From Dyadobacter sp. MSC1_007 (GTDB lineage Bacteria; Bacteroidota; Bacteroidia; Cytophagales; Spirosomataceae), in the NCBI RefSeq assembly GCF_023667495.1, contig NZ_JAMOZL010000007.1, positions 248,001-312,000 of the forward strand: a stretch of 64,000 nt of DNA, in the 5' to 3' direction. This document shows positions 3,015 through 6,171 of this stretch, one piece after another; the stretch's first letter is position 1, and each line of letters opens with the position of its first letter. The notes under the pieces are model-generated. The model was not told where the DNA came from. It worked only from the letters and a program-made list of their open reading frames with translations, and did no database searches. The translations under genes were made by a program, and so were the position numbers.

Positions 3015-4145
3015 TTATGAAATAAAGTCGAGGTAATTGTCGCGGTTGATAACCTGAAAGCTTGCCTCAGGGTAAGCGTTGGCAAATGCCACTGGAACCT
3101 TCGCACGATCTTCTTTCCATTTGAATTCATAAGCAGATAGTTGACCGTTTTCCATTTCCAGCCAGTCTATTTCTTGTTGGTCGTAGGTGCGCCAGAAATA
3201 ACAATCAACATGCCTTTTGGCATAAGTAAGTGTTTTCACCCTTTCACTGATCACATAGTTCTCCCAAAGTTCTCCGACATCCGTCCGCAGGGATAGTGGC
3301 TTGAAGTCGTTGATGATTGCATTTCTTACCCCGTTGTCATAAAAATACCAGCGGGTGCTTTTTGTTACTTCCTTGCGAAGGTTTTTGCTGAACCCGCCTA
3401 ATCGCCGTAAGATGAAAACTTTTGAAAGCAGGTCCAGGTACTTCTCAACCGTATTTTTGCTCAAATGCAAAGCCACTCCAAGCTCCTGCAACGATACTTC
3501 CTTTCCAGCTTGATAGGCGATCAGGCGAAGCAAGTCTTTTACCTTTTCAGCATTGCGTATGCCTTCAAAAGCGAGTATGTCTTTTAGCAGGTAGGAGTTG
3601 ACCAAATCTTTGAGGTAAGATTCTTTTTCCCGTGATGTTTCAAACTGAAATAATTCGGGATAACTGCCATATATCAGACGATCTTCCAAATGCTGCCTTG
3701 TTTCCAGGGCGTTCTCAAATGGTAAGAGTTCCTGTTGGGCAATTGGATACAGATTGTGAAAATATGCTCTTCCTGTGAGAGGTTCACCGGTTTGTTGGGC
3801 CAGGTCGAAAGCCGACGATCCGGTTGCTATTATCCGGATACCTTGTACATGGTCGACTATAAGTTTCAGTCTTTTACCGATATCCGGAATGGCCTGCGCT
3901 TCATCAATCACAATCAGGTCATAACCGGAAAAAATGCGTTTGTAATTGGCAATACTTGCCGGGGAAAGGAGATTTTGAGCGTCAATATCCTCGCCTTCCA
4001 GAACAAACACTCTGTAATGGGTATTCGCGATTATTTTTTGAACTAAAAAAGTTTTGCCAACCCGCCGGGTGCCAGTGATAACGTTTACTTTGTTAGGCTT
4101 CAGATGGTCAATTACTTGTTGATATAATAGGCGATTTATTTCCAT
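3015..4145 (-). CDS. AAA ATPase with DUF4143 C-terminal domain
   Basis: Predicted ATPase of about 376 aa. The N-terminal half holds Walker A (GTRRVGKTFL, about residues 26-35), Walker B (DLIVIDEAQ, near 80) and a sensor-like IIATGSSAFDL. A winged-helix-like segment (EVSLQELGVALHLSKNTVEKYL) precedes the DUF4143 region. Near the C-terminus, QQEIDWLE followed by AYEFKW matches the D...ExK pattern of PD-(D/E)XK nuclease folds, a feature described for this family. Function is not established. I use the ATG at 4145; a TTG at 4175 would add ten residues lying inside the 60-bp palindrome. The palindrome ends 5 bp before the ATG, so autoregulation or site-specific DNA binding is possible. The gene is monocistronic. 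Confidence 0.85.
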   Translation of the reverse strand: MEINRLLYQQVIDHLKPNKVNVITGTRRVGKTFLVQKIIANTHYRVFVLEGEDIDAQNLLSPASIANYKRIFSGYDLIVIDEAQAIPDIGKRLKLIVDHVQGIRIIATGSSAFDLAQQTGEPLTGRAYFHNLYPIAQQELLPFENALETRQHLEDRLIYGSYPELFQFETSREKESYLKDLVNSYLLKDILAFEGIRNAEKVKDLLRLIAYQAGKEVSLQELGVALHLSKNTVEKYLDLLSKVFILRRLGGFSKNLRKEVTKSTRWYFYDNGVRNAIINDFKPLSLRTDVGELWENYVISERVKTLTYAKRHVDCYFWRTYDQQEIDWLEMENGQLSAYEFKWKEDRAKVPVAFANAYPEASFQVINRDNYLDFIS

Positions 4146-4150
4146 AGCAT

Positions 4151-4210
4151 TAATTCCGTCATTATACTGACGCAATTTAGCTAAATTCCGTCAGTATAAT
4201 GACGGAATTA
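4151..4210. promoter_or_regulatory. 60-bp near-perfect palindrome upstream of DUF4143 ATPase
   Basis: Positions 4151-4172 and 4189-4210 are perfect 22-bp inverted repeats. The 16-bp centre (4173-4188) is itself the palindrome AATTTAGCTAAATT flanked by one C on each side, so all 60 bp are self-complementary except one C/C pair. Each arm holds an internal dyad CGTCA-N6-TGACG (4157-4172 and 4189-4204), 32 bp apart, about three helical turns. It covers positions -6 to -65 relative to the ATG at 4145. No T-run follows, so a terminator is unlikely. A double operator is the simplest reading. Confidence 0.85.
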
Positions 4211-4223
4211 ACATGAATTGGGC

Positions 4224-4256
4224 AAAAAAATAGCCGACCTGTTTTTCAAGTCGGCT
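4224..4256 (-). terminator. Intrinsic terminator of the purF-type gene
   Basis: On the minus strand AGCCGAC and GTCGGCT form a 7-bp stem around an 11-nt A-rich loop, followed by A and seven T. It lies 23 bp after the amidophosphoribosyltransferase stop and separates it from the DUF4143 ATPase gene. Confidence 0.8.
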
Positions 4257-4278
4257 GTCTTAAGAATTGAGAATCCAA

Positions 4279-6171
4279 TCAATAAGCTCTTTCCAGCTTA
4301 CCTTCGTAGGAATTGGCGAATGCTTTGTTTACTACTTTGTTTCCGCCTTGGGTTGGATAATTTCCGGTGAAATACCAGTCTCCCAAATGTCCAGGGCAAG
4401 CTTTGTGCAAGTTTTCAACTGTTTGGAAAACAACGGAAAGTTCCGCATTCAAATCTTTTGGACGGATAATCTCAGCGATTTTCTGAGAAATTTCTTCATC
4501 CGAGAACGGCTCATACAATGCCTTTACAAAGTTGGTATGATACGGATTGCGTGTTGCGATGGATGTAACGCTTTGAGTGTAAACGTCTTCCAGCATATAT
4601 TCCAGATCTCTTTCTTCAAGTAATTTGAGAACAGCGCGGAACGCCACAAAATCCTTCATTCTCGACATATCGATACCATAGCAATCCGGAAAACGAATTT
4701 GCGGCGCCGATGACGCTACTACAATCTTCTTCGGTTTAAGACGATCGAGCATCGTCAAAATGCTCTTTTCAAGCGTGGTACCACGGACAATGGAGTCATC
4801 AATGATCACGACGGTGTCTACATTTTTGCGAACTACCTCAAAAGTGGTATCGTACACACTCGAAACCATATCATCACGCAATGCGTCAGCAGTGATAAAG
4901 GTCCTCGATTTGACGTCTTTGGTTACGAGTTTTTCAATCCTCGGTCGGAATGACAATACCTTTTCCAAGTCGGATTCAAATAGAATGCCTTCCATAATCG
5001 CCTGTTTGCGCTTTTTAGAGAGATATTCTTCCAACCCTTCGATCATACCCAGGAATGCTGTTTCAGCTGTATTGGGTATGTAAGAGAAAATCGTATTTTC
5101 GAGGTCGTAATTGACTTCTTTAAGTATTTGCGGAATGAGCAGCTTGCCTAGTTGCTTGCGCTCATTATAAATATCCGGATCGGTGCCCCGTGAGAAGTAA
5201 ATGCGTTCGAAGCTGCATGACCGTTTTTCCAGGCGTGGCAAGATAGGGAATTCATTGAACTCGCCATTTTTGTCCACGATCAATGCCGAACCGGGTGTAA
5301 TTTCAGTGATCTGGTCGTAATCCACATTGAATGCAGCTTTGATCGCCTGCTTTTCAGATGCAACTACAACTACTTCATCGTCAGCATAGTAGAATGCAGG
5401 ACGAATGCCAGCCGGGTCGCGGATGACAAATGCCGCGCCATATCCTGTAAGCCCGCACATCGCATAACCGCCATCGAAATCACGGCATGATCTGTAAAGC
5501 AAACGAGGCAGGTCGATGTTGTCTTCTATGACGTCCGAAAGTGTAGGATTTTCATAGATTCCTTTGAAACGCTCAAACACCCGCTGGTTTTCTTCATCCA
5601 GGAAATGTCCAATTTTCTCCATCACAGTCACGGTATCCACTTTCTCTTTCGGATGCTGTCCCAAAGAAACCAGTTTACCGAACAATTCGTCCACATTGGT
5701 CATGTTGAAATTGCCCGCCATCACCAGGTTCCGGCTTCTCCAGTTGCTTTGGCGCAACATAGGATGGCAGTTTTCCACCTCATTGGTCCCATGCGTTCCA
5801 TAACGAAGATGTCCCAGCCAAACTTCTCCCGTAAATGCGAGATTTTCCTGCAACCACTGGCCATCTGAGGCGCGGTCACGGTTGTTTTTAAGGCCTTTGC
5901 GGAATTTCTTGTGAATTTTGGAGAAAATGTCCGTAAGTGGTTGAGGCTCTACGGACCTGTATCGGCTGATATAGCGTTTCCCGGGTGGGACGTCTATCTT
6001 GATATTGGCTACTCCGGCTCCGTCCTGGCCCCGGTTAACCTGTTTTTCCATCATTACCGAAAGCTTATGTACTGCGTACAGCGGCGTTTCGTACTTGTCG
6101 ATGTAGTATTGATAAGGCTTTCTAAGACGGATAAGTGCTATGCCGCACTCATGCTTAATGGCGTCGCTCAT
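4279..6171 (-). CDS. purF: Amidophosphoribosyltransferase (long form)
   Basis: First committed enzyme of purine synthesis, converting PRPP and glutamine to phosphoribosylamine. The glutaminase nucleophile is Cys9 (HECGIA), so the first eight residues form a short propeptide that is presumably removed. The N-terminal Ntn domain shows RGQDGAGVA and LGHLRYGTHG. The phosphoribosyltransferase domain carries the PRPP-binding motif TVVIIDDSIVRGTT near residue 455. At 630 aa it is longer than E. coli PurF (505 aa): there are insertions in the glutaminase half and a long C-terminal segment. This appears to be a long form seen in Bacteroidota. It is transcribed alone, divergently from recO, with a TACCTTTG -7 element at 6285-6278. 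Confidence 0.92.
   Translation of the reverse strand: MSDAIKHECGIALIRLRKPYQYYIDKYETPLYAVHKLSVMMEKQVNRGQDGAGVANIKIDVPPGKRYISRYRSVEPQPLTDIFSKIHKKFRKGLKNNRDRASDGQWLQENLAFTGEVWLGHLRYGTHGTNEVENCHPMLRQSNWRSRNLVMAGNFNMTNVDELFGKLVSLGQHPKEKVDTVTVMEKIGHFLDEENQRVFERFKGIYENPTLSDVIEDNIDLPRLLYRSCRDFDGGYAMCGLTGYGAAFVIRDPAGIRPAFYYADDEVVVVASEKQAIKAAFNVDYDQITEITPGSALIVDKNGEFNEFPILPRLEKRSCSFERIYFSRGTDPDIYNERKQLGKLLIPQILKEVNYDLENTIFSYIPNTAETAFLGMIEGLEEYLSKKRKQAIMEGILFESDLEKVLSFRPRIEKLVTKDVKSRTFITADALRDDMVSSVYDTTFEVVRKNVDTVVIIDDSIVRGTTLEKSILTMLDRLKPKKIVVASSAPQIRFPDCYGIDMSRMKDFVAFRAVLKLLEERDLEYMLEDVYTQSVTSIATRNPYHTNFVKALYEPFSDEEISQKIAEIIRPKDLNAELSVVFQTVENLHKACPGHLGDWYFTGNYPTQGGNKVVNKAFANSYEGKLERAY

Follow-up and report, generated by a model that had tools for sequence, protein, structure and literature searches.

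Structure of the palindrome

The window, that is, the whole stretch of 64,000 nucleotides from Dyadobacter sp. MSC1_007 that was analysed, carries on its minus strand (3015..4145) the gene of a DUF4143 ATPase (P0001, 376 aa), which combines an AAA_14 domain, a winged helix and a PD-(D/E)XK-like domain and corresponds to PADLOC PDC-S01. Its start codon is preceded by an inverted repeat (4150-4211) with 31-nt arms, 97% complementary, and a spacer of 0. The near-perfect 60-bp palindrome that a preliminary description had placed 5 bp from the ATG (4151-4210, ATG at 4145) was thereby confirmed, as were its two CGTCA-N6-TGACG dyads, the starts of which are spaced by 32 bp. Upstream, a purF-like gene (4279-6171) is followed by a terminator-like hairpin (4232..4256, minus strand), situated between this gene and the palindrome; a similar hairpin was readable at the equivalent place in relatives. 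An Rfam scan of the window returned nothing besides a cobalamin riboswitch (RF00174, 61998-62196, minus strand), away from the palindrome.

The palindrome is real, but its unit is smaller than the single 60-bp element first described: four half-sites make up a 58-bp lattice in which one dyad centre follows another at 16-bp intervals. This predicted operator array (4152..4209, minus strand) consists of four 10-bp half-sites AATTnnGTCA of alternating orientation, with 6 bp between each, and leaves 6 bp to the ATG of the ATPase gene. The half-sites are AATTCCGTCA at 4152..4161 (plus strand), which belongs to a stretch matching the 26-bp pattern used below without mismatch, AATTGCGTCA at 4168..4177 (minus-strand reading), AATTCCGTCA at 4184..4193 (plus strand) and again AATTCCGTCA at 4200..4209 (minus-strand reading). 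The sole mismatch of the palindrome sits in the unconstrained 'nn' of the second of these, and one dyad centre of the lattice is formed by the 14-bp palindrome in the middle, AATTTAGCTAAATT.

Scans of the 7.45-Mb genome located the 17-bp dyad form, with 0-1 mismatches, at this locus only; at 2 mismatches, 20 further places appeared, which is about the control rate. The 26-bp dyad form (0-1 mismatches) was likewise confined to this locus. Occurrence of the palindrome at unrelated loci, which the preliminary description had proposed as a refutation of its reading, was therefore not observed for either form, and the many dispersed copies typical of REP/RAYT systems were not found in these scans. 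A chance or dispersed palindrome was ruled out by this uniqueness together with the upstream repeat tests against controls reported below.

The DUF4143 ATPase

P0001 gave AAA_14 and DUF4143 Pfam matches above the cut-off, and matched the PADLOC profile PDLC04789 (PDC-S01, a single-gene phage-defence candidate) with E = 9.2e-157. An NCBIfam search with five proteins returned no match, and a PDB sequence search gave weak P-loop matches only. The AAA_14 ATPase domain covers residues 18-141 (3723..4094, minus strand), with conserved Walker A (K31) and Walker B (D81, E82) residues. It is followed by a predicted winged helix at residues ~205-245 (approximate limits; 3411..3533, minus strand), where residues ~205-237 match Pfam HTH_11 with E = 0.0011, under the curated cut-off, and where weaker matches to GntR, IclR and MarR_2 were also obtained. 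Its SKNTV stretch presumably corresponds to where the recognition helix begins in winged-helix domains; the first three of these residues, S229-K230-N231 (3453..3461, minus strand), predict the letters of the half-sites.

The D...ExK-like pattern noticed earlier in the C-terminal region (D327 ... E340-x-K342; 3120..3167, minus strand) held up in an alignment of 75 sequences. K31, D81, E82 and D327 were invariant, and E340 and K342 were kept in at least 90%. The ATPase and PD-(D/E)XK motifs of P0001 thus appear intact, the nuclease activity being putative, and P0001 may act as a defence effector of the ATPase-nuclease type. One report ranks PDC-S01 as the fourth most common defence in prokaryotes and describes most such candidates as not yet validated (PMC12988326). 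In another, a Thermus AAA_14-DUF4143 gene was 6.6-fold up in the presence of a plasmid, in an Argonaute-encoding strain (PMC4406477). The genome studied here holds seven DUF4143 genes.

Conservation of the array among homologues

Within the subfamily of the window's gene, upstream regions follow a common grammar: AATTnn-WWWW units, WWWW being a four-letter word that differs among members, alternate in orientation 6 bp apart and yield a 32-bp period. A template score was defined as the sum of AATT matches and palindromic pairs, with any WWWW and a maximum of 16, and it was drawn after viewing these sequences. Scores of at least 14/16 were reached by 67 of 78 named homologue upstreams vs 15 of 257 upstreams of neighbouring genes, and the full 16/16 by 39/78 vs 1/257; two homologues with short upstream sequences (L180 and L186) were left out of the 78-homologue tests. 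In a set scored after the template had been fixed, 27 of 36 loci reached 14 (22/30 without six loci identical to earlier ones). A generic repeat test was passed by 50/78, fewer than with the motif test, vs 19/257 controls. Template-free counts of 5-bp arms peaked at a loop of 6 in 60/78 homologues (controls 68/257) and at a loop of 16 in 67/78 (controls 71/257). According to record titles, the homologues came from Bacteroidota and from metagenome-assembled genomes of Nitrospiraceae, Verrucomicrobiota, WOR-1, Omnitrophota, Chloroflexi and others, labels which may err for such assemblies.

Upstream repeats extended to other DUF4143 subfamilies. All seven DUF4143 genes of the genome had a repeat or dyad before their start (p <= 0.01, from dinucleotide shuffles of each upstream sequence), the arrays differing among paralogues. 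With the same threshold, a direct or inverted repeat within 150 nt upstream was found for 69 of 81 DUF4143 genes vs 5 of 109 control ORFs. This set was drawn from the genome and from 17 relatives, where 88 matches had been obtained; 82 were taken, six short fragments being left out, and L081, which has no P-loop, was dropped. A conserved dyad upstream of homologues, the lack of which the preliminary description had named as a refutation of its reading, is present. With L121 and L130 left out, the same repeat test was passed by 17 of 27 phylum-wide homologues and by 1 of 8 plasmid homologues, dyads being readable by eye in some others of the latter.

Ten loci (L001, L028-L031, L033, L035, L037, L040 and L047) displayed tandem direct repeats (~22 nt, ATGTAATTTCAAA) upstream instead of dyads, and the inverted-repeat score was low in most members of this subfamily. 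On plasmids of Shinella, Dinoroseobacter and Granulicella (L246, L248 and L249), the DUF4143 gene adjoins repA, repC or RepA genes.

Co-variation of half-sites and recognition helix

The four-letter word of the half-site changed together with residues 229-231. With a first half-site caller, column 230 was K for all 53 GTCA, 7 GCTA and 3 GCAA sites, and R for all 17 TTGA and 6 TTCA sites; when identical proteins were counted once, these numbers became 52 GTCA-K, 7 GCTA-K, 3 GCAA-K, 13 TTGA-R and 6 TTCA-R. One assignment of this caller was rejected: L183, called TTGA, should be TTCA, as its protein reads SRN and AATTnnTTCA half-sites are readable upstream. The triplets correspond to the words as follows: SKN to GTCA, SRN to TTCA, DRN to TTGA, DKN to GTGA, SKD to GCTA and AKQ to GCAA. 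When S/D229 and K/R230 are combined in all four ways, the half-sites run through all four combinations of C/G at base 3 with G/T at base 1.

A second caller, blind to the protein, called 108 of 137 sites and left 29 uncalled; proteins identical to another one or below 46% identity were left out of this count. Among called sites, agreement reached 60/62 for SKN-GTCA, 10/10 for SRN-TTCA, 11/11 for DRN-TTGA, 4/4 for SKD-GCTA and 1/1 for DKN-GTGA, while K230 occurred with a base 1 other than G at 7 called sites, part of which are evident mistakes of the caller. Rules fixed beforehand were applied to newly fetched loci, duplicates L251, L268, L274 and L298 being dropped, and 22 of the 26 rule-covered loci were right. 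Removal of L255 (missed) and L295 (right), both known genes under other ids, left 21/24, where 20 of the 21 correct loci belonged to the commonest class, SKN-GTCA, and one was SRN. As for the misses, the predicted half-site was readable yet uncalled in L255 and L282, and L293 and L294 have ~40% identity.

A FastTree tree built without columns 226-240 served to count switches. Residue 230 changed 11 times, 7 of these being K/R switches, and base 1 flipped between G and T on the same branch in 7/7 cases, out of 18 base 1 changes in total. When 321 alignment columns were ranked, K230 came first for base 1; S229 and N231 ranked first and second for base 2, and in reverse order for base 3, and none of the residues 229-231 led for base 4. 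Restriction to supported branches left 4 independent K/R pairs for residue 230 and 5 for residue 229, all agreeing, numbers too few for a sign test at 0.05. About half of the independent pairs agreed for residue 231 vs base 2. Among more distant relatives, D229 together with K231 accompanied GGA/TCC arms in 12/12 cases vs 8/24 for other residues. This co-variation of half-site and recognition helix indicates, indirectly, that the protein itself very probably reads the site.

Arrays outside the gene start

In 12 same-genus relatives (L302-L313), tblastn detected no DUF4143 gene in the stretch fetched around the purF site. Eleven of them had neither array nor gene, and L302 (G003, 3' flank of purF, dyad at 1376) lacked the gene as well but carried four half-sites, which were read by eye within the 230 nt downstream of purF. 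Of 101 family genomes, 9 contained the exact 26-bp pattern, at 16 places altogether (reversed control pattern: 0), 11 of which lie at a DUF4143 gene. The other five were L322, L324, two at L331, and L323, the last inside an ORF; no DUF4143 gene was found around them within ~1.5 kb on each side (less in L322).

The solo arrays of L331 and L324 (position 1501), from two genomes of one genus, lie where two ORFs converge, and in both genomes the ORF whose 3' end they adjoin is the same regulator-like one, which we take to be DeoR-like; these arrays are either relics or functional sites. In two genomes, matching arrays stand on both sides of a DUF4143 gene (L325/L332 and L327/L334). At least two half-sites of the gene's own type were also found 3' of 8 of the 107 genes with a called site, and a downstream dyad score of at least 14 was reached by 11/136, near the upstream control rate (15/257).

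A pure operator does not account for the 3' and solo arrays, and movement of arrays is a possible source of those that are solo or flanking. The array could be part of a mobile element, either because gene and palindrome move together or because the protein helps palindromes to move in the manner of REP/RAYT pairs. The gene-less arrays at the purF site of L302 and in L322, L324 and L331 would fit such a mobile element, as would the genes flanked on both sides, the patchy distribution and the plasmid copies. It is nevertheless an unlikely explanation: there is no second copy in the Dyadobacter genome, exact sites are restricted to few family genomes and mostly accompany the gene, and 3' dyads are a minority. 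Moreover, recombination between two flanking arrays could delete the gene and spare one array, and such gene loss accounts equally well for the solo arrays. As regards the 'self-contained module' suggested in the preliminary description, the pairing of gene and array is conserved in homologues, but the gene-less arrays of relatives call for some reserve about self-containment.

Promoters and neighbouring genes

A sigma-70 scan of 4050-4320 on the strand of the gene, by a method that does not cover Bacteroidota promoters, gave no promoter-like site. Among 19 non-Bacteroidota loci, 13 had their best sigma-70-like promoter overlapping the best dyad; this count has no chance control, and some overlap would arise by chance in 150 nt. 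L178, L189 and L190 have near-consensus sigma-70 promoters whose -10 box lies inside the dyad. TAnnTTTG, presumably the Bacteroidota -7 box, was found in 35 of the remaining 59 loci, nearly all of them Bacteroidota by title, vs 53/257 controls. The conserved dyad expected of an autorepressor thus seems to be in place, both at the start of the gene and at its promoter. Among ORFs of 150 aa or more, no neighbour or partner family recurred in more than 5 of 77 loci; the search for a partner of the two-gene toxin-antitoxin kind covered this size range and found none there. A cognate methyltransferase, expected nearby in a restriction-modification system, was not encountered among neighbour families, which were surveyed by their recurrence across loci.

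These data bear on the earlier suggestion that the palindrome is either the gene's own operator or a recognition/cleavage site. In the latter case, the PD-(D/E)XK-like domain would recognize or cut the array in a restriction- or homing-like way and the promoter position would be incidental. Conservation of D327, E340 and K342, the suitability of palindromic sites for symmetric nucleases and the own-type half-sites found 3' of a few genes are consistent with cleavage. Yet specificity follows the winged helix and not the nuclease-like domain, a cuttable site in the own chromosome would be harmful and no conserved neighbour gene is at hand, and the site is tied in position to the gene start and, in homologues, to the promoter. 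Cleavage, with no positive support beyond the D...ExK-type residues, is therefore quite improbable, and the operator half of the suggestion is favoured by the promoter overlap in homologues.

Binding of the array by a host-encoded regulator instead of the ATPase, for which no direct support was found, is very improbable, given that the site shifts with three residues of the ATPase, that it is the same across phyla while neighbours vary and that no other such site exists in the genome. A role of the palindrome as RNA, a leader hairpin controlling translation, is likewise very improbable: the hairpin would be very stable (folding z = -9.2 vs shuffles for 4120-4215 as single-stranded RNA) and ends close to the ATG, but the dyad covers the -10 box in several homologues and would be at most partly transcribed, the tandem-repeat subfamily mostly has low inverted-repeat scores, and the half-site tracks a DNA-binding helix.

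Proposed function of the array

The array is conserved, unique in the genome and co-variant with the recognition helix, and we consider the palindrome to be most probably the operator from which the DUF4143 ATPase gene is controlled and to which its product binds through the winged helix. Direct binding of the array by P0001 is very likely, since the site varies with the helix of the protein, is kept across phyla amid changing neighbours and is found in this genome at the gene alone. With half-sites AATTnn-WWWW alternating every 16 bp, neighbouring protomers would bind as inverted pairs over ~5.5 helical turns. Residue 230 would read base 1 of WWWW, Lys with G and Arg with T, and residues 229 and 231 would read bases 2 and 3. 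Autorepression is likely: P0001 on the array would block RNA polymerase and keep its own gene low. These assignments were drawn from comparison of sequences. More speculatively, release from the array, perhaps upon infection and coupled to ATP, may serve as a defence switch and provide more of the ATPase-nuclease effector. The data therefore point to a real, conserved and probably self-recognised operator array of the DUF4143/PDC-S01 ATPase with a readable helix code.

A broader proposal, which we regard as tentative and rather doubtful, is that a one-protein immune system is switched by the array. Bound to its private lattice as an ordered oligomer, each PDC-S01 ATPase would be inactive and would repress its own gene, and infection would free it so that expression and nuclease activity rise together. 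The helix code (229-231 vs WWWW) would prevent cross-talk between paralogues, and gene-less arrays would be footprints of gain and loss.

The array offers a computable DNA target and a simple binding test for members of the subfamily. The code makes a prediction at the level of single letters, namely that K230R should turn the GTCA preference into TTCA. It may also indicate how one cell carries seven DUF4143 genes without cross-regulation, and where the trigger may be sought. Finally, a winged-helix code with seven natural switches can be useful for protein-DNA recognition in general.

Comparison with known systems

RAYT transposases and REP sequences also associate a single gene with a cognate palindrome. 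Unlike these, the sites described here are not dispersed in the genome, and the protein is an AAA ATPase and not a Y1 transposase. In archaeal Orc1/Cdc6, an AAA+ ATPase, the winged helix binds inverted origin boxes that often lie beside its own gene. P0001 differs by its nuclease-like C-terminus, by the location of the array at the start codon and by occurring as several paralogues in a genome, every one of which has a separate site. As to PDC-S01, P0001 matches the profiles of this family, and none of the open PubMed Central titles, abstract openings and passages covered on PDC-S01/DUF4143 genes mentions an upstream self-recognised array. CapW and BrxR, autoregulated WYL/winged-helix repressors of defence loci, are reportedly proteins separate from what they control, whereas ATPase, winged helix and putative effector are here found in one polypeptide. 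They reportedly resemble the present locus, as interpreted here, in having an operator of palindromic form and a winged-helix repressor that guards a defence locus (PMC9122588, PMC9122589).
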